Source: Candidatus Kapaibacterium sp.
GTDB taxonomy: Bacteria > Bacteroidota > Ignavibacteria > Kapaibacteriales > UBA4661
Assembly: GCA_025455065.1 (NCBI GenBank)
Contig: JALONG010000009.1
Span: 1-64,000 of the forward strand
Reading direction: 5' to 3'
DNA: 64,000 nt
Shown: piece after piece, positions 5,842 through 60,499 of the stretch
Layout of the letters: each line of letters begins with the position of its first letter
Position numbering within the stretch: position 1 is the stretch's first letter
Made by a program: the position numbers and the translations under genes
Notes under the pieces: model-generated
The model's input: only the letters and a program-made list of their open reading frames with translations
Told to the model about the DNA's origin: nothing
Databases searched by the model: none

Positions 5842-7980
5842 TTAGACCGCCATTTCATGCGGATCTTGCATCGTTTGAAACTGTTCGGTGCTTGCTTGAT
5901 GCAATTCGACAATAAACGTTGCACCATAGCCAAAGAGCGATTCACACCAGACACGTCCGCCAAGCGTGTCGGTAAGTTTTTTGACTATTGAAAGCCCTAA
6001 CCCCGTCGAATGTTCCCCGGCGGTTGGTTGCGCGGAAAGACGTGCAAATTTAGTAAAAAGATGCGCTTTATCCTCTTCTGTTAATCCGGGACCAAAATCT
6101 TGTATTTCAAAACGAACGCATTTTTCGGTGAACTCTTCGGCAGTTGATTCGTCTTCAAGGCTCATTTGAAGCCATTCTTCGCGTGTCCAAATGCGATTCG
6201 TCTGCAAAATACTTGATTCTGTAAGACGCACCGATATGCGTTGTCCGGGATTCGAGTATTTCACGGCATTGGAAAGAAGATTTTCAATAATTTGAATTGT
6301 AGCATACTTGTCCGCAAGGACGTACAAATGCTGCTCCGGCAGCGATAATTCCAAGCGAATATTTTTCAATAATGCCGGCTGTTCAAAACGGTCAATTACC
6401 CCGGAGAGCATCACATTGGCACTAAAAACAACGGGTTGCAATGCGAGTTTGCCGGATTCAATCGCATTAACATCCAACAAATTCGTGATCAGTTCAAACA
6501 TCCGGCGAGAATTGTCTAAAATCACTGCCGATAATTTTTTGACCTGCTCCTGCGAAAAATTGTCGTGTTGTAGCATTTCTGCCACACCCTGAATTGCCGA
6601 AACAGGATTTTTCAAATCATGCGCCGCAATGCCTAAAAACTCATTTTTTTCTTTGTCTAAATCCAACAGCATCCGATTCTGCTCTTCGATTTCCAATTTC
6701 GCTACACGTAATTGTGTGTTTGCCGCCGCTAATTCCGCAGCACGAACTTCCAACATTTTTTCCGATTCCTGCTTCAAACGGAAGCGGTTCACCAACAGCA
6801 CAAGTGAGACAAGAAGCAGTACGCCGCCGCCAATCAAGATATTCCGCACCAATTCTTGTTGTCGTGTTTCTTTTTCCAATAGAGCAACTTGTTCCGCCTT
6901 GCGCTCATGGTCATACCGTGCCGAATATATTGCCGTTTGCCTCGCTGCTTCTTCGGTGTAAAGCGAATCGCTAGCTTCTTTGAGCAAGCGATGATATTCC
7001 AACGATGTTTCGTAATCCTGTAACTGTGCAGCAGTTTCCGCTAAAACCCAGAGTGCATCTTTGATTTGCTGACGTGATTGCGATTGTTGAGCGTATCGGT
7101 ATGCTTCTTCAGCATACTTTTTCGCTTCATTTGGCTTACCAAGCATTAAATATACGGAAGTTATCCGCGAGAGCGTGCCGCTCATATCATGGGGCTGACG
7201 ATAATGGTCAAAGAGCGCGAGCGCTTTCATATAATACTCTTGAGCTGTTTTATAATCACCCAATTCATAGAATGACAGCCCAATACTGGAAAGCGTTGCA
7301 GCGATATTTACCTCAGCACCAATTTTTTCCCAAACCTTTAATCCGCGTAACAGTAAGCCTAGTGCTTCGGAATACTGCCCTTGCAAATGCCGCACATCAC
7401 CGATATTGGATAAACAATACGCTAAAAGCCTATCGTCGTGCGTTTTTTCGGCAATGGTCAGCGCCCGCTCCAAATACCCAATGGCTTCTTGCGGTTTTTT
7501 TTGCAAAATAAAAATTCTACCGATACTGTTGAGCGAATGTCCAATTTCCACAGGATTTTCGCCGTTGTTCTCGTCAATAGACAATGCTATAAAAAAATGT
7601 TCAATCGCCTCGCCATAATCGCCGAGATTACGATACGCTACACCCAAAAATCGTTCTGCTCTGGCAAGATTTTCGGTAATGCCAAATTGACGACCAACGA
7701 TAATTGCTTGCCGACCATACACAACTGACTGCTTTGGGTTCAAAGCCCGATATTCCCAGCATAATTCTATTAACGTCGAATACTGCGCTGCACCTTGCTG
7801 CGTTTGAAGGACACTTTTGAGCGAATCTATGCGATAGTTGGATTGCTCCTGCGCAAAAATAGTATCAGAATGAATACACAAACACACCATACACACAAGC
7901 AACCAAGCGTATTGACCGCCATTCGCGGCTCGCAAAGCAAGCCGTTTACAATGACAGTATATGGTGAACGAAAATACCAT
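5842..7980 (-). CDS. TPR-repeat sensor histidine kinase
   Basis: A 712-residue membrane-bound kinase. The N-terminus carries a signal-like hydrophobic segment (YAWLLVCMVCLCIHSDTIFAQ). Six or so tetratricopeptide repeats follow (about residues 60-340; e.g. AERFLGVAYRNLGDYGEAIE, SLNSIGRIFILQKKPQEAIG), predicted periplasmic, then one transmembrane helix (LIGGGVLLLVSLVLLVNRF), a coiled coil, HisKA with His454 in [11 protein letters not shown], and an HATPase domain (N-box IENLLSNAVKYSNP, G1 DFGPGLT, G2 [10 protein letters not shown]). The stimulus sensed by the TPR part is unknown. It is the third of four consecutive same-strand kinase genes (108 bases after the DISM kinase gene) and has no dedicated DNA-binding partner nearby. 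Confidence 0.94.
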   Translation of the reverse strand: MVFSFTIYCHCKRLALRAANGGQYAWLLVCMVCLCIHSDTIFAQEQSNYRIDSLKSVLQTQQGAAQYSTLIELCWEYRALNPKQSVVYGRQAIIVGRQFGITENLARAERFLGVAYRNLGDYGEAIEHFFIALSIDENNGENPVEIGHSLNSIGRIFILQKKPQEAIGYLERALTIAEKTHDDRLLAYCLSNIGDVRHLQGQYSEALGLLLRGLKVWEKIGAEVNIAATLSSIGLSFYELGDYKTAQEYYMKALALFDHYRQPHDMSGTLSRITSVYLMLGKPNEAKKYAEEAYRYAQQSQSRQQIKDALWVLAETAAQLQDYETSLEYHRLLKEASDSLYTEEAARQTAIYSARYDHERKAEQVALLEKETRQQELVRNILIGGGVLLLVSLVLLVNRFRLKQESEKMLEVRAAELAAANTQLRVAKLEIEEQNRMLLDLDKEKNEFLGIAAHDLKNPVSAIQGVAEMLQHDNFSQEQVKKLSAVILDNSRRMFELITNLLDVNAIESGKLALQPVVFSANVMLSGVIDRFEQPALLKNIRLELSLPEQHLYVLADKYATIQIIENLLSNAVKYSNPGQRISVRLTESSILQTNRIWTREEWLQMSLEDESTAEEFTEKCVRFEIQDFGPGLTEEDKAHLFTKFARLSAQPTAGEHSTGLGLSIVKKLTDTLGGRVWCESLFGYGATFIVELHQASTEQFQTMQDPHEMAV

Positions 7981-10380: not shown

Positions 10381-12441
10381 TTACGCGACATTGAAAGTGG
10401 AAGCCGGAAAACGCGCAATAAACGTTGCCCCCAAGCCGTATTCCGACTCACACCACACCTGCCCGTTCATCATCTCGACAAGCTGCTTGACAATCGAAAG
10501 CCCAAGCCCGTTAGAATCTTCTCCGGCAGTAGGGCGAGCCGAAAGTTTCGTGAATTTTCCGAAGAGGAATTGTTTGTCGTTCAGCGTTAATCCTGGTCCT
10601 TCATCTTGAATTTCAATCTTGATAAACTCTTGCTTTTTGACACTATTTTCATACCCGTATTGCACTCCTTCTTCGTGCATAATACGCACAAACACACGCT
10701 TACCGGGCGGAGTATATTTCACTGCATTAGAAACGAGATTTTCTGCAACCTGCATAAATGCTTGTTCATCCACAAACGCACAAAACTCATAAAAACCTTT
10801 TGTGTCTTCTAAATGCCTGTGCGCCGTAAAGGAGAGCGTGATGTTCTTTGCCTTCGCTGCATCCATATACATCTGAACACAGGTTTCAAGGAGTGCAGCG
10901 GCATCAACGTTAATCATTTGCAACGCAAAATTACCACTTTCAATCGCGTTTACATCCAGCAGATTTTTGACAAGGAGAAACATTCTTTCGGCAGTATGAC
11001 TGATTCGCCCTGAAAGCATAGAAACTTCGTCGCTCGGCATTTTTCCTGCTTCCATCGCAATATATCCCGCAAGGGCATTAATGCTGGTCAGAGGATTTTT
11101 CAAATCATGCGCTGCAATCCGCATAAATTGCGACTTTTCTTCGTTTAATTCCACCAAATGCTCGTTTTTGTGTTGCAACTCACTGTTCATTGTAGCAATC
11201 TCGCTTGTTTGCTGCTCCAAACGAGTGCGCTGGGCAAGAATTTCTTGGTTCTGCTCCGAAAGTTGTTTGTTCACGGTGCGCATCCGCAAATATGCCCGCG
11301 ACAACAGTAACCCGGCAATAATAATGACACCCACAATTCCCAGCAGCCCATTACGAGTTGTTTGTTGAATTTGGTTGTCTTTCGTCAAAAGTTGAATTTG
11401 CGTTGACTGGGCGCGAGTCTGTATTTCACGCTGCATTGCGGCTATCTGCCGTGCGCTTTCCTGATTAAACAAACTGTCTTTGTACAGCACGGTCAGCGTT
11501 TGGTATTTGTACGCCATTTTGTAATTGTTCATCGTTTCGTACAAATGCTGATAACCTTCATAGGTATCTTTGATACGAAAGCGCATATTTCCTTGCTGTG
11601 ACAGTGCTAACGACGAATCCAAATACTGCTGCGCTTCCGCAAATCGCCTCATATCGGCATACAAATATCCCAGCAAATAATACAACCGTGAGTTCGCAAC
11701 AGCGTTTGCGGGGTTAGCGCTGATAATCACCAAGCCTCGCTTAAAAAACGTTTCAGCCTCGGTAAATTCCTGTCTGCGACGGGCAATATCGCCTAAATGC
11801 GACAACGCAAAAATTTGTATCACCGGAACATTGTACTTATTGGCAAGCGAAAGTGCTTTGTCTGCATAGACTTGTGCAAGGTTCAAATTTCCCATTTGCA
11901 AATACGTGTAGCCGATATTCGACATTGAGGCAGCATATCTGTCCATTTTGCCGAGACGCAAAAATAGCGGCTCGCCACGCTGGTAAAAATCCAGCGCATT
12001 TTCGTAGTCGCCTTGCTCGAAATAACAGATTCCAAGACCGTTCCACACATTTGCCAGCCCGACGGAATCACGCAATTCCTCGTAAATCGGCATTGCTCGC
12101 AGATAAAAACTCGTGGCATCGGCTAATTTTCCGATGCGCTGATAAGCAAAACCGATGTTCCGACAGGCTGCGGCTGTACCTTTGCGATTGGCGCTGTGTT
12201 CGGCGACTTTTAATGCTTGTTGTCCGTAAAGCAATGCACTATCAGCTTTGTAGGCATTATACGCATAACTGAGTTCATTCAGCAAATCAACAAACCGCTC
12301 TTCCTCTGCACCGGGTCGGTGCAACTCTCTCAGCAGCGAATCAATACTACGTGTCTGCCCTAAAGCATGAGGCACAAAAGCACACCATATCACGCTTACA
12401 CAGGCAATAACGAGAACAATATATCTTCTTGGTTGTTTCAT
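10381..12441 (-). CDS. TPR-repeat sensor histidine kinase
   Basis: A 686-residue relative of the kinase at 5842-7980. Signal peptide MKQPRRYIVLVIACVSVIWC, then about six TPR units (residues 45-330; e.g. CRNIGFAYQRIGKLADATSF, WNGLGICYFEQGDYENALDF), one transmembrane helix (GLLGIVGVIIIAGLLLSRAYL), a coiled coil, HisKA with His445 in [13 protein letters not shown] and HATPase with NLVSNAVKYTPP, DEGPGLT and [10 protein letters not shown]. Starts at 12441 and 12459 are both ATG; the former gives the better signal peptide. The gene begins 38 bases after recN, so it may be read from the recN promoter. The TPR ligand and the partner regulator are unknown. Confidence 0.94.
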   Translation of the reverse strand: MKQPRRYIVLVIACVSVIWCAFVPHALGQTRSIDSLLRELHRPGAEEERFVDLLNELSYAYNAYKADSALLYGQQALKVAEHSANRKGTAAACRNIGFAYQRIGKLADATSFYLRAMPIYEELRDSVGLANVWNGLGICYFEQGDYENALDFYQRGEPLFLRLGKMDRYAASMSNIGYTYLQMGNLNLAQVYADKALSLANKYNVPVIQIFALSHLGDIARRRQEFTEAETFFKRGLVIISANPANAVANSRLYYLLGYLYADMRRFAEAQQYLDSSLALSQQGNMRFRIKDTYEGYQHLYETMNNYKMAYKYQTLTVLYKDSLFNQESARQIAAMQREIQTRAQSTQIQLLTKDNQIQQTTRNGLLGIVGVIIIAGLLLSRAYLRMRTVNKQLSEQNQEILAQRTRLEQQTSEIATMNSELQHKNEHLVELNEEKSQFMRIAAHDLKNPLTSINALAGYIAMEAGKMPSDEVSMLSGRISHTAERMFLLVKNLLDVNAIESGNFALQMINVDAAALLETCVQMYMDAAKAKNITLSFTAHRHLEDTKGFYEFCAFVDEQAFMQVAENLVSNAVKYTPPGKRVFVRIMHEEGVQYGYENSVKKQEFIKIEIQDEGPGLTLNDKQFLFGKFTKLSARPTAGEDSNGLGLSIVKQLVEMMNGQVWCESEYGLGATFIARFPASTFNVA

Positions 12442-23778: not shown

Positions 23779-23823
23779 CAAACTTACATTTCATCGTTTA
23801 CCTGAATGTTACGGCAATGTTAA
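23779..23823 (-). promoter_or_regulatory. Pho-box-like promoter of the beta-helix gene
   Basis: On the minus strand TTAACA, GTAACA and GTAAAC (5' ends 23823, 23812, 23801) repeat at exactly 11-bp intervals and lie 37, 26 and 15 bases before a TAAGTTTG -7 box (23779-23786). No TTTG -33 box is present, as expected of a promoter that needs an activator. The arrangement matches the promoters at 57640-57706 and, within one base, at 26838-26883. Confidence 0.6.
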
Positions 23824-48603: not shown

Positions 48604-51039
48604 TTAAAACTTAAAGCCAATACTCAAGGTCGGGATAATCCCAAAGAGCGCCGTCTGCTGAACGCTGGGAACGAGGATATTCGCAGAGTTTGCACGAGGA
48701 CCTTCGCCAACAGGTATGGGTGCTGCGTTTGTAGCCGTGCCGTAGCGGACGACCCATTGGAACGGATTTTGACGGTTGTAGGCGTTGTACACGCTCAAAG
48801 CCGCATTAAACGGTAATCCGAACCACGTAAAGTAGTGCGTGATGTTCACGTCCAATTTGTGAAAATCCGGCAAGCGGAAGCCGTTACGCTCGGTGTAATT
48901 CACCCGAACGCCTTGGATAAGCGGGTTTGTCTGCTGAATGCCGCCCACAGTCGGAAAAGAGTATTGCGCCGAGGGCATCGTAAATGCTTGCCCCGTAGCA
49001 AATGTCCATGTTGCGCCCAATTCCCACACATCAGAAAGTTTGTATGTGCCAACAACAGAAATATCATGGCGGCGGTCGAATCGCGGAAAAAAGGGCTTGC
49101 CGTCATTGAGTTCAGCAAAAGTGCGTGTCGCCCATGAAAGCGTGTAGCCAATCCATCCCGTGAAAGCACCCATGCGCTTTTCCAAGAAAAATTCCACGCC
49201 GTAAGCATCGCCCACGCCTTCGGTCAAAACCGATTCGGTTGGAGCAAGCAAGCCGAAAGGCGCATTATCTCTGAATTCATAGAGATTTCGCATGAACTTG
49301 TAGTAGCCTTCCACGCTGAAGGTATATTCACCGTTGAGCAGTTTCGTTTCCGCGCCAAGCACGTACTGAATAGCGTTTGCGGGCTTGATGTTGTTCGTTG
49401 CAGGAAACCACGTGTCGGTAGGCAGCGCCACATCGTTACGGATGACCAAATGCAAAAACTGGTTCGCAATAGCAAACGCGCCTTTGATAGAAAGGTCGTT
49501 CACAAAACTGTCCGTGTTGCCGCTAAATACACTATACGATACGGATGCTCGCGGCTCAGGCAGGAAGCGGTCTCCACGCTGGAAGTACGCCATGCGTAAA
49601 CCGATATTCGTTGTAAATTTCTCGCTGATTTCCCACTCATCTTGCGCATAGATACTCGCTTCCAGAGCATCAATCGTGTTATTGGAGCCGAGTGCCGCAA
49701 GTGCCTGACCGAAAGGCAAACTCTTCGATTCTACCAGCGTTGTAAAGCGGTGGAAGGTCGCATCAAAGCCAAATTTGACCTTGTGTTCGGTTGCCGGAAA
49801 ATACTGCGCGTCGCCACGCAAGGTAAAATCACGGATTTGGGAAAATGTCGTAAAACCGACTTCGTTATCACCTGTGCCAAAGCCAATGTTGATGCCTGTT
49901 CGGTAATCGGTGTAAATTGCGGAGAAGTTTGAGAAGAGCGTCGGCGAGAAGGTATGCGCCCAGCGAATGTTCGCCGTTGCATTACCCCAATCAATACCGA
50001 AACGCAAGGCTTGGTCAGCCGTTGCCCCGGCAGCAGACGAGGTTAGTACGTCATTCCCGAAATAACCGCTCACATAGAGGCGGTCGTCATCGGAAATTTT
50101 GTAATTGAGTTTTGCGTTAAGGTCGTAAAAGTAATAATTAAGACTGCTTTGCTGCCCCGAAATGGCGGAACTCAGCGCCAAAAGCGGGTCTAAGTAGGTT
50201 CTACGTCCCGAAACCATAAACGATACATCGTCGCCAATCGGACCTTCAATAGTCGCACGAGCCGCAATAAGACTGAGGTTTACTGTACCGCCGAACTTTT
50301 CTTTCGAGCCTTCTTTCATCGTGAGGTCAATCACACTGGACAAACGTCCGCCGTATTCGGCAGGAAACGCACCTTTAATCACGCGAACATCACGAATAGC
50401 GTCGTTATTAAAAACACTCAGAAAACCGCCTAAATGCGAGGGATTATAGACAATCACACCATCAAGCAGCGTTAAATTCTGGTCGGGTGAGCCACCGCGC
50501 ACGTATAAGCCGCTTGAAAGCTCACCACCGGACTTGATGCCAGGCATATACTGAAGCATACGGAACACATCTGCTTCGCCGCCAATGGTGGGCAGTTTCC
50601 GCACCATATCTGCTTTCAGTTCCACAGCGCTGATATTTGCAACGGATTTTGTTTCGCGCTCTGCCGTAATCGTAACCTCGCCAGCGCTCACATTTGCTTG
50701 CTTCAGTGCGATATTCATCTTCACAGCAGCATCGGGTTTGTCAATGGTAATCGCTTTGGAAAATTGTTTGAAACCTACGCCGCGCACAACAAGGAAATAC
50801 GAGCCTTGAGGGACAGTGGGAATAGAATAAAAGCCGTATTTATTTGTCCGCGCACCACGTAAAATGGCGCTTGCAGACGACGCAGTTTCGTCTTTCGACA
50901 AAATCACATTTACGCCGATAACTGCTTCGCCTGAGCCTGCTTCGCTTACCGTGCCGGAAATCACGCCGTTTTGAGCAGGCAAAAGCCTTGCGAACAGCAT
51001 CAGGGCTGCTGTTAGAACAGAGAGTTTGAAAAACTTCAT
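48604..51039 (-). CDS. TonB-dependent receptor, carboxypeptidase-regulatory N-domain
   Basis: An 811-residue outer-membrane transporter. Signal peptide MKFFKLSVLTAALMLFARLL, a CarboxypepD_reg-like domain (about residues 22-110; GVISGTVSEAGSGEAVIGVN), a plug (about 115-230; VRKLPTIGGEADVFRMLQYM, LLDGVIVYNPSHLGGFLSVF) and a beta-barrel ending PTLSIGFKF. The YNPSHLGGFLSVFN plug motif marks the receptor type that pairs with DUF4249 lipoproteins; the pair is present here. No Pho-type repeat or TAnnTTTG box was found upstream. Substrate is unknown. Confidence 0.93.
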   Translation of the reverse strand: MKFFKLSVLTAALMLFARLLPAQNGVISGTVSEAGSGEAVIGVNVILSKDETASSASAILRGARTNKYGFYSIPTVPQGSYFLVVRGVGFKQFSKAITIDKPDAAVKMNIALKQANVSAGEVTITAERETKSVANISAVELKADMVRKLPTIGGEADVFRMLQYMPGIKSGGELSSGLYVRGGSPDQNLTLLDGVIVYNPSHLGGFLSVFNNDAIRDVRVIKGAFPAEYGGRLSSVIDLTMKEGSKEKFGGTVNLSLIAARATIEGPIGDDVSFMVSGRRTYLDPLLALSSAISGQQSSLNYYFYDLNAKLNYKISDDDRLYVSGYFGNDVLTSSAAGATADQALRFGIDWGNATANIRWAHTFSPTLFSNFSAIYTDYRTGINIGFGTGDNEVGFTTFSQIRDFTLRGDAQYFPATEHKVKFGFDATFHRFTTLVESKSLPFGQALAALGSNNTIDALEASIYAQDEWEISEKFTTNIGLRMAYFQRGDRFLPEPRASVSYSVFSGNTDSFVNDLSIKGAFAIANQFLHLVIRNDVALPTDTWFPATNNIKPANAIQYVLGAETKLLNGEYTFSVEGYYKFMRNLYEFRDNAPFGLLAPTESVLTEGVGDAYGVEFFLEKRMGAFTGWIGYTLSWATRTFAELNDGKPFFPRFDRRHDISVVGTYKLSDVWELGATWTFATGQAFTMPSAQYSFPTVGGIQQTNPLIQGVRVNYTERNGFRLPDFHKLDVNITHYFTWFGLPFNAALSVYNAYNRQNPFQWVVRYGTATNAAPIPVGEGPRANSANILVPSVQQTALFGIIPTLSIGFKF

Positions 51040-53935: not shown

Positions 53936-55756
53936 TTATTTCCTCGCTGCGGGAAGTTTTTTTGCGTGTGAAAAATGCTTCGTATTTCCCTGAAGCCGCT
54001 TTCTTCCACGCTCCTCTACAACTCCTTGAAAACGACCCAGAGCCTCTTGCAGTGCGGAGGTCAGCGCAGCAAGATTCTCAGCGGCTTCGGCGATAATGCC
54101 GACATCATCGGCAGAGCGCTCGGAAATCGTCGTAATACGGTTCACACTCGCGCTCACATTCTCGCCCGCAGCCGATTGTTCCTCGCTTGCAGCGGCAATG
54201 TTTTGAATAAGCTCCACCATTGCTTCCGAACTTTTCACCACGCCGTGCAGTGCCGTTCCGGCGTTGTCGGCAAGCGTGATGCCTTGTTTTACTTGGTCGT
54301 TACCTTCGTTCATCACCTTGACGGCATCGGAGGTTTCTCGCTGAATGGCGTTAATCATTGTGGTAATCTGCTTCGTAGCTTGCGTGGTACGCTCTGCGAG
54401 TTTACGGACTTCATCGGCAACAACCGCAAAACCGCGCCCCTGCTCGCCTGCGCGGGCTGCTTCGATAGCGGCGTTCAGCGCCAGCAAATTCGTCTGGTCT
54501 GCAATTTCGTTGATAACAAGCGTGATTTCGCCAATCTCCGCACTGGATGCACCCAGCTTTTCAATCGTTTTTACTGATTGTGCTACGACATTGGCAATTT
54601 GCCGAATTTTATCCACCGTTTGAATCACCACAAAACCACCGGATTGAGCAATGGTACGGTTTTGCACCGCTACTTCGGATGTTCGTGCAGCGCTGCGGGC
54701 GTTGTCGGCAATCGTTGTGGTCATTTGGCTCATCGAAGCGCGTATTTCCTGTGTTTGTGTGGCTTGCCCTTCGGCTGCATCGGCAATAAGGATGCTCCGC
54801 TCTTGGATATTTGCTGCCGCTTCAGCGACATTTTCCGCCGCTTCATGCACCTGCGCCATCATACGTTGTACATTCTGAACGGCAGCATTAAAGCCATTAC
54901 AGAGGTCTCCGATTGCGTCATCACTCGACACGTCCAAGCGTACTTCAAGATTGCCATTAGCAAATTCTTGCATTGTTGCCAAAATTTCTTCCACACTTTT
55001 TTGTAAGTATTCTTGCTGCTCCACAGCCTTTTGTTGCGCTTCCACAGCCCGCATCTCGCCTTCATGCGCAACGATTGTTTGCTTGGAAATTTCGTCATTT
55101 GCCCTGAGCAGACTTTCCAACATTTCCCCGAAAGACCGCATGAGTTCTCCCGTTTCATCGCTTCCGGCGCTGTTGTAGGGAATCGGAGTCGTCAAATCAC
55201 CTTCGCTCACACGCTGCGCCGCATCACGCAGGGCAATAACAGGCTTTGCAAGGTTTCGTGCCAGAAAATACACGCCTACGCTGCCCAGCAAAAACAAGCC
55301 CGCAATCACACCAAGCATCGTCAGCGTCCGAGTCCGAATAAGCGCAGCAATACGCTTTGTAGAAGACCCCACAACCACAACTCCCTTCAGCGACGGTGAT
55401 TCAACCGAAGAGCGCTTCACAACAAGGCTGTCAGTCTGCGTAATATTTTCGGCAAACTCGAATTTTTCAGGAAATGCCGCAATCGTCTGACCGTCGCTCA
55501 CCAAAGCAACGAAGCGCACATCAGGGTTTTGCTTCACGTAATCAATCGCCCTTTGGGCGCTCTGCAAATCTTGATTTTGCAGACCAATCGAAACACCCAA
55601 GGCGACTGTTTCCGCTAGCGCCTGTGATTCACGGGTGAAGGATTCAAGCAGGGTTTCACGGGTTTGTGTCGGGAAATATATTCCCACAAAGACGACTATC
55701 GCCAAGAGCAAGGCATTGACGAGAAGTTGGATTTTGGTGCGAAGGCGGAAGCGCAT
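53936..55756 (-). CDS. Methyl-accepting chemotaxis protein
   Basis: Membrane chemoreceptor that signals to CheA/CheW. The 606-residue product has TM1 at about residues 9-28, a periplasmic sensor of about 115 residues (29-146, single Cache-like: [19 protein letters not shown]), TM2 at about 147-166, HAMP at 167-220, a second HAMP-like segment (about 270-325) and the signalling helices with the hairpin tip [18 protein letters not shown] and [18 protein letters not shown]. No CheR-tethering pentapeptide is at the end. The start at 55756 is preferred; the longer frame adds a TNDQV repeat that is only the tandem array. It lies 135 bases downstream of the PstS-like gene, same strand. No che gene is in the window. 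Confidence 0.93.
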
Positions 55757-55770
55757 AGAGTGGGGCTTGG

Positions 55771-55835
55771 TTACTTGGTCATTAGTTACTTGGTCATTGG
55801 TTACTTGGTCATTCGTCATTTGTCATTCGTCATTC
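55771..55835. repeat. Tandem 15-mer and heptamer array upstream of the chemoreceptor
   Basis: Three 15-bp units (TTACTTGGTCATTNG; 55771, 55786, 55801) run into four 7-bp units (GTCATTC or GTCATTT; 55808-55835). It lies in the leader of the chemoreceptor gene. If translation began upstream it would encode T-N-D-Q-V repeats, which is improbable. Confidence 0.9.
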
Positions 55836-56357: not shown

Positions 56358-57572
56358 TTAAAAAATGACGCTCAAGCCAAAATAAATAAAATTCAGTCTT
56401 ACAGCATCCGAAGCACGTGTTTGCAGGAGTTGATACTGTGTCTTTGCTACCAAACCATCAATAATGCGGTATCCCAAACCTCCGCCAAAAGCGTCCAAAC
56501 CGTTTGCTGTTGGGTCTGTAGGGGTTATGACATCGCCTTTAAGGTAGCCGTAATTGACGTAAGCGTAAAAATTATCGGTAAAATTGTAAAGCAGATTGCC
56601 GTAGTAGAAGGTTTTATCGAGTGTTCCGCGAAAATTTGTGGGATAGGTAACGTTGTGAAAAACACCAATATACTCGCCCTCAAATGCAAAATTTCCGAGT
56701 GAAAACGATAAATCTGCCCCCACGCGAAACCGTTCTACATCGCCCAAGGGAGCAAGGTATTCTTGCCTTCCCATTCCTAGAGGACCGCCAAATGTTGTGT
56801 CTCGACGATTATCGCGGTCATAGGTGCCGGAAATACCAACTTTGAACGTTTCAGATGCATTACGAAGACCTATACGCCCACCTGTTGCCTTAAAAGGAGA
56901 TGTATCTTCACCTGTTATAGCAGCTTGCGGGAGGCGTTCATTACTGTTTGAGATATAGGATTTTTCTGAGTTTCCTGTATGCAGGGCATAGTCCAGTCGC
57001 AAGCCTCCAAGCGGCACCGAGCCGTAGAATTGCAAATAGGCTCGCTCAGGCAGGAAATCCTCAGCGTTCAGAAGGCTTGCAATGCTGGTTTCATAGACAA
57101 ATGGTCGGAAAAGATACGGCAAAAGCGGTGTGCGGTTTTTGAGTTCGTTAAGATTATTAAACGTCGGCAAAAGCAGACCGGCTTTAACGTTAAGGGCTTC
57201 GCTGTGGTTGTAATTTGCCCACGCTTCTTCCACACTAAAACTCCCCCAACCGCGCTGCGAGGCATATGAAAGCGAAAATTCTAAATTCACAAATGCGCTA
57301 AAGCGCTCTCCAAGCGGCTTGGAAAGGAATAGGTTCATTTGTTGCAAGGAAAACGTATTCCGCTCGGAAGTGTTTGAAATAGTACCCACCGGAGTAGAGA
57401 TATTGTTGTTCGTGCGCTGATTATAGCCCAAAACTTGCATATATCCGTAAATGCGAAGATCGCTGAGTGGGTTGTCCTGCGCGTGCAGTGGCTGAATGAA
57501 CAATGTCGTAATGTATAATGTTGCCACACAAAGCGCACCAAGACTTGTTCGAGAAGGTGAAAAAGTGTTCAT
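56358..57572 (-). CDS. Phosphate-selective-porin-like outer-membrane protein
   Basis: A 404-residue beta-barrel. Signal peptide at residues 1-33 (ALCVATLYITTLFIQPLHAQ). The body has alternating strands typical of OprO/OprP-type porins: LRIYGYMQVLGYNQR at the start, FSLQQMNLFLSKPLGERFSAF, VEEAWANYNHSEALNVKAGLL, YLQFYGSVPLGGLRLDYALHTG, FRVGADLSFSLGNFAFEGEYIG and the closing NFIYFGLSVIF. The start at 57572 was chosen for the signal. The next gene is the PstS-like protein, 10 bases on, and the promoter carries four 11-bp-spaced TTAACA-like repeats, which supports a phosphate link. Anion selectivity cannot be read from the sequence. Confidence 0.87.
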   Translation of the reverse strand: MNTFSPSRTSLGALCVATLYITTLFIQPLHAQDNPLSDLRIYGYMQVLGYNQRTNNNISTPVGTISNTSERNTFSLQQMNLFLSKPLGERFSAFVNLEFSLSYASQRGWGSFSVEEAWANYNHSEALNVKAGLLLPTFNNLNELKNRTPLLPYLFRPFVYETSIASLLNAEDFLPERAYLQFYGSVPLGGLRLDYALHTGNSEKSYISNSNERLPQAAITGEDTSPFKATGGRIGLRNASETFKVGISGTYDRDNRRDTTFGGPLGMGRQEYLAPLGDVERFRVGADLSFSLGNFAFEGEYIGVFHNVTYPTNFRGTLDKTFYYGNLLYNFTDNFYAYVNYGYLKGDVITPTDPTANGLDAFGGGLGYRIIDGLVAKTQYQLLQTRASDAVRLNFIYFGLSVIF

Positions 57573-57639
57573 ACAGAATGATTTAATATGAGGAATTGTG
57601 AACAAATGATTGTGAATGTTCTTGTCAATAATCATGGCA

Positions 57640-57706
57640 CAAAATTACCGTTTCACACTATGCACGTTGTTAAGACCTTGTTAAGAGTTTGTCAAAGGTG
57701 TGTTAA
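57640..57706 (-). promoter_or_regulatory. Pho-box-like array and -7 box of the porin operon
   Basis: On the minus strand TTAACA, TTGACA, TTAACA and TTAACA (5' ends 57706, 57695, 57684, 57673) repeat with a period of exactly 11 bp. The last is 26 bases before a TAATTTTG -7 box (57640-57647), which is 68 bases before the ATG. The direct-repeat geometry is that of PhoB/PhoP boxes. The array lies between the porin operon and the divergent kinase/regulator genes, so it could serve both. Confidence 0.75.
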
Positions 57707-57748: not shown

Positions 57749-57769
57749 TACGGTATTTTGCACACCGTA
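57749..57769. other. Inverted repeat TACGGT-N9-ACCGTA
   Basis: Perfect 6-bp arms (57749-57754 and 57764-57769) surround nine bases. It overlaps TATTTTG (57754-57760), a one-base-short version of the TAnnTTTG box in the orientation of the kinase gene. It may be an operator for that gene. Confidence 0.5.
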
Positions 57770-57849: not shown

Positions 57850-59736
57850 ATGCCTCAATCCCGCATAAAATCGCCTCTTCTTTGGATGATTGTGATACTT
57901 CTCGCAATCGTTCCGCTTTTGGCGTGGTTGCAATGGCGCTGGATTGGGGAGATTTCCGACCGCGAAGCACAGCGTTTGAGGATGAATGTCCGCACAGCAT
58001 CTATTTATGCGGCATCGAACTTCAATCAACATGTTTTGGCGCTTCAGCGTGCCTTTCCCATGAATGACATGGCGGACAATGTTCAGGATTATGCACCCAC
58101 GCTGGCGGAACTCTGGAAGGCTTGGAAGCAAGACGGGGACACGCTTTTGGTGGAGGGGCTGTACATTGTTAAAAGTGAAAAAGCAGGCAAAAACGAGGCT
58201 GCTCATTTTGCTACATACCGCTTCGATGCTGACCGCGAGGCATTTCAGCCAATAAATACAAACGAGACACCGACGCTGTTTTTTGAGAACACCCCACGAA
58301 TCCCTATATCCCGCATTATATCAGGACTTCAAGCGCTTGCCGTGCCGATTTTACCGACACGTTTGCAAACGCCTCCAAGCGGCATAATTAGCGAAGAAAT
58401 TCCGGGTATGCTCAAGAGTGGGGCGCATGGATTGTCGCCGCCGCAGTTTGGCGGAGGAATGGGGGAAATGGGTAGCGGGGCGATGATGGCGATAATGTTC
58501 AGTGGCATAAAACCTGATGTTTTGATGGTACGCTTCGATACCAACTATCTTCGTAAAACATTGTTGCCGGAAATAATGAACACACATTTTCAAAAATCCA
58601 GTTATCATTGGGCGATAATCAACCGTCAAGACCGCACCGTTCTTTGCTCTTCGGAGGAATCACTGCATACTGAAATGTTCGCCAAAGCCGATTTTTCTGT
58701 ACCGATGGGCTTTGTACCACCCCGTGCGCCGGGTCCGATGGGAAAAGCGCTTGCAAGCGTCTTTGCGCGGCTTCCGATAGCGATTGCAACGGAGCAGGAT
58801 ACCAATACGATGGATTTTTCTTCGCTGCTGCCCAGTATACGTCAAGGAAATCTCCCGCTTGGGCTGGATTCTGCGCTAGCACAAAGCCTTTTGGGTGTTG
58901 CCGAATTGCGCGTTGTGGCGGCTGCGGGTTCGGTGGAGCAAGAAGTGGCGGCGTTTCGGCAGCGAAATTTGCTGGTGAGCGGTGGAATACTACTTATTTT
59001 AGCGGTGGGATTGGTGGTTGTGCTGCTTGCGGTCATGCGCTCGGAACGGCTTGCAGAACAGCAAATGCGCTTTGTTGCAGGAGTTTCGCATGAAATTCGC
59101 ACACCGATTGCGGTGTTGCAATCTGCCGGAGAAAATCTCGCAGACGGCATTGTGAAAACCCCTGAACAGGCACAACGCTACGGAATGGTTATGAAGCGAG
59201 AAATTACGCGGCTTTTGGAGATGACCGAAAAAACACTCTCCTTTGCCGGAATCCAAGCCGGAAAACGTACACTTGACCGCCAAAGCGCATCAATTCAAGC
59301 GCTCATGGACGAAACACTTTCGCGCAATGCGGATTTTTTGCAGGGTGAAGGCTTCACCGTCAAAACTCAGATAGAAAGAGGTCTGCCGATGCTTCCCATT
59401 GATACTCGCGCACTCAATTCAGTGCTTGATAATTTGATAACAAACGCCGTAAAATACAGCACAGGGCGGCAGGAAATCGTGATGAAGGCGCAGAAACAAG
59501 GTTCTATGCTGGTTTTAAGCGTACAAGATTTTGGTCGCGGTATTGCCCTAAAAGACCAAAAGCACGTATTTGAGCCGTTTTTCCGCACCAATGATGTTAT
59601 CAACGCACAAATTCACGGCACAGGGCTTGGTTTGGCTATCGTTCAATACCTCGTGAAGCAGCATGGTGGCTATGTTTCCGTCGAAAGCGAATTGGGGCGC
59701 GGTACGACATTTTTTGTGAAATTGCCGTTGGACTAA
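57850..59736 (+). CDS. Membrane sensor histidine kinase, partner of the OmpR-type regulator
   Basis: A 628-residue kinase with TM1 (about residues 9-29; LLWMIVILLAIVPLLAWLQW), a large periplasmic sensor (30-373) of no recognised fold, TM2 (about 374-396; LLVSGGILLILAVGLVVVLL), HisKA with His414 in VAGVSHEIRTPIAVL, and HATPase with DNLITNAVKYST, DFGRGIA and GTGLGLAIVQYL. The sensor contains a Gly/Met-rich stretch (FGGGMGEMGSGAMMAIMFSG). It lacks the PAS domain of classical PhoR. The start at 57850 precedes the first membrane helix. The regulator gene begins 55 bases after it. The H-box differs from the other kinases in this window (SHEIRTP rather than AHDLKNP). Confidence 0.93.
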   Translation: MPQSRIKSPLLWMIVILLAIVPLLAWLQWRWIGEISDREAQRLRMNVRTASIYAASNFNQHVLALQRAFPMNDMADNVQDYAPTLAELWKAWKQDGDTLLVEGLYIVKSEKAGKNEAAHFATYRFDADREAFQPINTNETPTLFFENTPRIPISRIISGLQALAVPILPTRLQTPPSGIISEEIPGMLKSGAHGLSPPQFGGGMGEMGSGAMMAIMFSGIKPDVLMVRFDTNYLRKTLLPEIMNTHFQKSSYHWAIINRQDRTVLCSSEESLHTEMFAKADFSVPMGFVPPRAPGPMGKALASVFARLPIAIATEQDTNTMDFSSLLPSIRQGNLPLGLDSALAQSLLGVAELRVVAAAGSVEQEVAAFRQRNLLVSGGILLILAVGLVVVLLAVMRSERLAEQQMRFVAGVSHEIRTPIAVLQSAGENLADGIVKTPEQAQRYGMVMKREITRLLEMTEKTLSFAGIQAGKRTLDRQSASIQALMDETLSRNADFLQGEGFTVKTQIERGLPMLPIDTRALNSVLDNLITNAVKYSTGRQEIVMKAQKQGSMLVLSVQDFGRGIALKDQKHVFEPFFRTNDVINAQIHGTGLGLAIVQYLVKQHGGYVSVESELGRGTTFFVKLPLD

Positions 59737-59791: not shown

Positions 59792-60499
59792 ATGAATCAT
59801 TCCATACTTCTTATCGAAGACGACAGCGGACTTGTTTTTATGCTCTCCGACAGGCTTTTGGCAGAAGGTTACGTCCTTGAAATAGCCAACGACGGGCGCT
59901 CCGGCTTGGCATTGGCGCAAAAAAAACGCTTTGACCTTATTTTGCTGGATGTGATGCTGCCCGAAAAAACGGGCTTTGAAGTCTGCCGCGAACTCCGCAA
60001 AAGCGGCATCACTACACCGATTCTCATGCTAACGGCTCGCGGACAACTTGACGATAAAATTACAGGCTTGAAATTAGGTGCTGATGATTATATGACCAAA
60101 CCCTTTGAGGCACTCGAACTTGTCGCCCGCATAGAAGCACACATCCGAAGGAATCAGTATCCTTCTTCACAAGAGACACTCCCCGCAAAGCACTATGAAC
60201 GGTATGCTTTCGGTGATATTGTCGTGGACATTCGCGGTATGGAAGCCCACAAAGCGGGACAAGCACTGGATTTGTCGCTCAAGGAATTTCAGCTTTTGGT
60301 GTATCTCATCGAAAATCAGGGAACAATGCTCTCCAGAGATGATATTTTGAACAATGTCTGGGGATATGATGCCATGCCAACCACCCGCACCGTAGATACA
60401 CACGTGGCGTGGTTGCGCCAAAAAATTGAGCCAAATCCCAAACAACCCCAATTTATCTTGACTGCGCACGGATTTGGGTATAAATTTGTTGCTTCGTAA
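59792..60499 (+). CDS. OmpR/PhoB-family response regulator
   Basis: A 235-residue transcription factor. Receiver with the acidic pair Glu9-Asp10-Asp11, phosphoacceptor Asp53 (LLDVMLPEKTG), Thr82-type switch (LMLTARG) and Lys103 (YMTKPF). The C-terminal winged helix (about residues 140-235) has LSLKEFQLLVYLIENQGTML, SRDDILNNVWG, TRTVDTHVAWLRQKIE and the wing ILTAHGFGYKF. It is the only DNA-binding response regulator in the window. OmpR/PhoB proteins bind direct repeats with an 11-bp period, which fits the array 2 kb away between the divergent operons; it is therefore the best candidate to bind it, although binding is inferred. Confidence 0.95.
   Translation: MNHSILLIEDDSGLVFMLSDRLLAEGYVLEIANDGRSGLALAQKKRFDLILLDVMLPEKTGFEVCRELRKSGITTPILMLTARGQLDDKITGLKLGADDYMTKPFEALELVARIEAHIRRNQYPSSQETLPAKHYERYAFGDIVVDIRGMEAHKAGQALDLSLKEFQLLVYLIENQGTMLSRDDILNNVWGYDAMPTTRTVDTHVAWLRQKIEPNPKQPQFILTAHGFGYKFVAS

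Follow-up and report, generated by a model that had tools for sequence, protein, structure and literature searches.

The HLR1 box of RpaB, a regulator that mediates light/redox control in cyanobacteria, is a TTACA-type direct repeat with an 11-bp period. PHO boxes are built of 11-nt direct repeats that are bound head-to-tail (PMC4415409), and the WalR/VicR box has the form TGTWAH-N5-TGTWAH (PMC4168254). The Bacteroidota -7 box was mapped to -12 to -5 in Flavobacterium psychrophilum (PMC9723704). A search of the open-access literature found no described Bacteroidota Pho box.

Here we describe an array of four TTAACA-type hexamers in a 64,000-nucleotide stretch of DNA, hereafter the window, from Candidatus Kapaibacterium sp. 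(genome G000), a member of the Bacteroidota. The array is a real, evolutionarily conserved site. It is very likely a four-half-site operator of the response regulator (RR) encoded nearby (Table 1), which would activate the porin operon on one side of the array and probably also autoregulate the sensor histidine kinase (HK) and RR genes on the other.

Table 1 Features of the window and array loci of the sister family f7.
Feature	Position or locus	Strand	Remarks
Four-half-site operator (predicted)	57668..57706	minus	exact hexamers, 11-bp period
Hexamer 1 TTAACA	57706-57701	minus	
Hexamer 2 TTGACA	57695-57690	minus	
Hexamer 3 TTAACA	57684-57679	minus	
Hexamer 4 TTAACA	57673-57668	minus	
20-nt spacer, last hexamer to -7 box	57648..57667	minus	length invariant in six species
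-7 box TAATTTTG, porin-operon promoter	57640..57647	minus	read from sequence; placed at -12 to -5 per PMC9723704
Conserved -7-like box TATTTTGC, divergent HK/RR promoter	57754..57761	plus	47 nt from array edge
Outer-membrane porin-like gene, first downstream of array	56358..57572	minus	start 57572 preferred over 57635
Short PstS-like periplasmic protein, 151 aa	55892..56347	minus	lacks R-x3-SGT phosphate-binding motif
Methyl-accepting chemotaxis protein, same gene cluster	53936..55819	minus	MCPsignal 6.5e-50
TonB-dependent receptor, further down cluster	48604..51039	minus	homologues in G003 and G007 clusters
Sensor histidine kinase (HK)	57850..59736	plus	HisKA 6.7e-13, HATPase_c 4e-26
OmpR/PhoB-family response regulator (RR), proposed array binder	59792..60499	plus	Response_reg 2.6e-27, Trans_reg_C 2.6e-26
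f7 arrays before pst operons or PstS	L136, L137, L139, L142, L144, L148, L149		
f7 arrays before other phosphate genes	L138, L145		L138, Porin_O_P gene (phosphate-selective porin); L145, Na/Pi cotransporter

Array sequence, promoters and conservation

Read on the minus strand from 57706 to 57640, the site is TTAACA-CACCT-TTGACA-AACTC-TTAACA-AGGTC-TTAACA-N20-TAATTTTG. An earlier note, made from the letters of the window alone, had described four TTAACA-type hexamers with an exact 11-bp period, and re-reading the sequence gives the same hexamers in the same register; as direct repeats at this period they also support the PhoB/PhoP-type geometry that it proposed. Its Bacteroidota-type -7 box is borne out as well, with the octamer fitting TAnnTTTG, as expected of a Bacteroidota sigma-A promoter, and invariant in six species. 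The distance of 26 bases to this box holds when the count begins at the first base of the last hexamer, whereas the gap from the hexamer end is 20 nt.

The transcription start of the porin operon is predicted at about 57635, and the array would then span -71 to -33. The transcript would begin right at the ATG at 57635, and the porin start at 57572 is therefore preferred, from which the protein begins MNTFSPSRTSLG... with a signal-peptide-like stretch. On the other side, a TATTTT facing the HK gene is separated from the array by 47-48 nt in five species; in G003 the distance is 36 nt, one 11-bp step under 47. In G004 and G006 this box is a full TAnnTTTG, TATTTTTG. With an HK/RR transcript predicted to start near 57766 on the plus strand, the array would be placed at about -60 to -98 of this promoter. 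By shuffling, the probability of a TATTTT within 70 nt is 3-16% per species, and a phased TATTTT in all six is unlikely to be a chance occurrence, bearing in mind that related species are not independent. Before genes of the lineage, TAnnTTTG occurs 38 times in sense and 25 times in antisense orientation, the surplus lying 50-100 nt upstream (19 sense, 7 antisense there).

Orthologous arrays occur in five further species of the genus (G001, G003, G004, G006 and G007). The repeats, whose absence from orthologous promoters the earlier note had named as counting against its reading, are kept in all six, with all four hexamers, the exact N20 and the TAnnTTTG box, and with TTGACA as the second hexamer throughout. 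Pairwise identity among the six sequences is 98.6% in the hexamers and 100% in the box (six fixed positions), values to be read knowing that the sites were gathered by the motif itself and were bound to fit TTRACA and TAnnTTTG; it falls to 64% in the 5-bp spacers, to 44% in the N20 (constant in length) and to 35-40% in the flanks. The comparison is meaningful because the sites share an orthologous position beside the HK gene and their flanks have low identity.

Several other 11-bp arrays were seen. In G006, four TTAACA at 11-bp steps precede a serine hydrolase/beta-lactamase-like gene (L061, G006:C132, 6370-6408) without the N20-TAnnTTTG geometry, and in the genome of the window three TTGACA at 11-bp steps are intergenic and lack a matching -7 box (L062, G000:C130, about 6680-6708, minus strand). 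The window itself holds a distinct conserved array at 23779-23823 (minus strand), TTAACA-N5-GTAACA-N5-GTAAAC followed by TAAGTTTG, downstream of a TonB receptor gene and immediately before the gene for a T9SS-sorted 700-aa protein; similar sites with homologous genes nearby occur in G001:C81 (two), G003:C5 (two) and G113:C23, the last from a distant family. Two families of the order have arrays of TTGACA/TTTACA/ATGACA with N20-TAnnTTTG ahead of genes for secreted 5'-nucleotidases (L140, G047:C84; L151, G107:C14).

The neighbouring kinase/regulator pair

The array lies between the orthologous HK gene and a divergent gene in 6/6 same-genus genomes. Across the ten genomes of family f1, array and RR orthologue (E at or below 1e-70) occur together in seven and are both missing from three (G002, G005 and G102, the last only 70% complete), a match with a chance of 1 in 120 under independence, although shared descent weakens the test. 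The tie to the adjacent OmpR-type regulator that had been suggested from the window is upheld by this co-occurrence and by the position divergent from HK. That HK, RR and array share a locus would in part be expected if they were simply inherited together, an objection that the changes of target gene weaken. Array, spacing, conservation and association with the HK/RR pair can all be read from the genomes directly.

The HK has an extracytoplasmic region of about 345 aa flanked by two likely membrane helices. The RR carries the expected receiver residues D53, T81 and K103, which are invariant, and its recognition-helix segment is TTRTVDTHVAWLRQK; the DNA-contacting segment TTRTVDTHxAWLRQK is retained in all seven RR orthologues. 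The locus combines several marks of an operator of an OmpR/PhoB-family regulator: 11-bp hexamer repeats, a linked gene with receiver and Trans_reg_C domains, and co-occurrence of the two across species.

A natural variant is found in G004, which has a second HK/RR pair at C111, with an RR 57% identical, beside its copy of the porin/PstS-like/chemoreceptor genes. Around 11660-11731 of this contig (L177), six half-sites at 11-bp steps, with TTTACA and CACACA alternating, precede the porin orthologue as TTTACA-N5-CACACA-N5-TTTACA-N5-CACACA-N5-TTTACA-N5-ATGACA-N20-TAGATTTG. The 11-bp steps, N20 and box are retained, and both the hexamer letters and the helix residues, here STRTVDMHILKLRQK, are changed. 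Were the array read by the regulator encoded next to it, such a joint change of helix and hexamers would be expected.

Two sites count against this link. In G101, of the same family, a three-hexamer version with one mismatch precedes an outer-membrane beta-barrel receptor gene on a contig without the RR gene, where the regulator would have to act in trans, and near a second, shorter site in G006 (C235) no HK/RR pair was found. At the loci of a third RR paralogue (G004:C69 and G006:C188), a TTAACA pair is spaced at 9 bp and no 11-bp array was found. Beside 80 RR relatives from other phyla, three-hexamer arrays show a slight excess (4 loci against 0 for the reversed control, at >=17/18 positions, i.e. 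at least 17), on which we base no claim, two of the four lying inside genes.

Target genes and the phosphate genes of a sister family

The first gene downstream of the array encodes a porin-like protein for which a Pfam search gave no match even at E=1; its AlphaFold2 model, from a five-sequence alignment, is strand-rich and of low confidence (pLDDT 48), which is not good enough for a fold search. The PstS-like protein encoded next is half-length, with KGDSPAK at the aligned place of R-x3-SGT, a motif that the full-length PstS of the genus retains; it is not a two-lobed PstS with R-x3-SGT, and it is possibly a ligand carrier for the chemoreceptor. The gene is kept together with the porin and chemoreceptor genes in four species. 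The porin takes the divergent position in G000, G001 and G007. In G003 the divergent gene is a TonB receptor gene, with a DUF4249 gene and the porin further down on the same strand; in G004 it encodes a T9SS-sorted DUF4397 protein. In G006 the gene for a 396-aa exported protein comes first and a homologue of the G004 DUF4397 protein next.

In the sister family f7, pst operons, some of them led by a porin gene, are preceded by an array of the form TTAACA-N5-TTAACA-N5-TTAAxx-N20-TAATTTTG in G100, G064, G097, G048, G099 and G098; such an array is also found ahead of PstS in G078, a Porin_O_P gene in G067 and an Na/Pi cotransporter gene in G093. Judged by these positions, it is likely to be the Pho box of those species.

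Alternative readings and comparison with known systems

In the mechanism that we propose, two RR dimers would sit head-to-tail on the four 11-bp half-sites, the last of which, on the porin side, falls at about -38 to -33, in place of a -33 element. Phosphorylated RR would most likely recruit RNA polymerase/sigma at this last half-site and so switch on the porin/PstS-like/chemoreceptor operon. As the array also lies about 60 bp upstream of the HK/RR promoter in the other direction, the system would probably control its own synthesis too. We infer binding, activation rather than repression, and autoregulation from this arrangement: conservation by itself would fit activation and repression alike, and the RR is most likely an activator because the last half-site sits where the -33 element would be.

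That the array is a chance repeat or a non-regulatory DNA repeat has a negligible probability. Lone TTRACA hexamers are indeed no commoner in the window than expected (74 seen against 86), but in dinucleotide shuffling of the whole window, patterns of three and of four in 11-bp register arose in 0/300 shuffles, and 11-bp pairs, observed 3 times, averaged 0.07 per shuffle. Across the order, a scan gave 68 sites against 12 for a reversed-pattern control (summed from the scan table), and we regard this reading as already refuted by the conservation in six species. An unlikely but more serious alternative is that the array serves mainly the HK/RR promoter, as an autoregulatory site, or represses the porin operon, whose -33 region it would cover. 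The HK-side box is kept in all six species in phase with the array, and the gene on the opposite side varies, both as this alternative would have it; yet it is the target side that has a base-exact N20 to a perfect TAnnTTTG in all six, which is where an activator acting at -33 would sit, whereas on the HK side the distance ranges from 36 to 48, and the target-side box is kept with the array in G101 and at G004:C111 too.

It is quite improbable that the array is a true Pho box, bound by the RR or by the genome's PhoB and inducing the operon upon phosphate starvation. The f7 arrays with their N20-TAATTTTG before phosphate genes speak for it, as do the PstS-like gene and porin of the operon, from which the earlier note had drawn a phosphate-starvation circuit. 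That circuit finds no support in this lineage: the RR is not the PhoB orthologue, scoring 180 bits against a PhoB model with a cut-off of 270 that no RR of the genus reaches, and the best match of the f7 PhoB in the genome of the window is G000:C49 (160 bits), with the window RR third (117 bits). A tree also groups the f7 PhoB with C49 (99/97), within the limits set by long branches. In eight same-genus genomes, the regions examined ahead of pst genes showed no array, with contigs in some of them ending near the operon; the PstS-like protein lacks the phosphate motif, blastp finds no similarity between the window porin and the f7 Pho porins, and absence of the array coincides exactly with absence of the window RR (G002 and G005), yet those genomes keep pstB. 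Of the marks of a Pho regulon, a linked PhoB and a box before the genus's own pst operon were not found here, and the geometry before phosphate genes is present in f7 only. Phosphate control of the window operon is no longer the leading reading, and the kinase signal is probably other than phosphate starvation sensed via the Pst system. A TTAACA-N5 array alone is no proof of phosphate control, since essentially this site goes with a non-PhoB paralogue as well.

With the RR operator as the preferred reading, the locus supplies an exact operator/promoter geometry for two-component control in a lineage that has TAnnTTTG promoters and has received little study, consisting of four half-sites predicted at -71 to -33, an invariant N20 and, as part of the same geometry, a second promoter that faces the kinase gene; a likely Pho box is gained for f7. 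The array is a local operator of an already known kind. The regulon-wide signature that the earlier note hoped for is not borne out, as a genome scan for the repeats with a spaced TAnnTTTG found the array essentially in single copy, the two-hexamer-N20-TAnnTTTG pattern having one perfect match in the 5.6-Mb genome, the window site. A bolder reading, less probable than not, is that PhoB and non-PhoB RR paralogues within one order share the 11-bp TTAACA code and N20, kept apart only by the fixed TTGACA of the second half-site and by changed helix residues. The non-Pho operator would then remain beside its kinase, and each species would put it to use for different surface-transport genes.

Among known systems, the PHO box of PhoB/PhoP in E. 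coli, Bacillus and Streptomyces resembles the array in its tandem 11-bp half-sites for an OmpR/PhoB-family regulator over the -35/-33 region. It differs in that the RR linked to the array is not a PhoB orthologue, that pst upstream regions of the genus are without such a box, and that the array has four half-sites, all near-perfect, with TTGACA in second place in each of the six species. The WalR/VicR (YycF) box is also a hexamer direct repeat with a 5-bp spacer, and its reverse complement includes TTAACA, but it is one half-site pair from Firmicutes, whereas the array has four half-sites and outer-membrane/surface-protein targets. RpaB gives the best NCBIfam score of the window RR (210 bits, below the cut-off of 330), and its HLR1 box shares the 11-bp direct repeat on a different type of promoter. 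Like the Bacteroidota sigma-A promoter, with TAnnTTTG at -12 to -5, the locus has the -7 box, but the last half-site of the array would here replace the -33 element.
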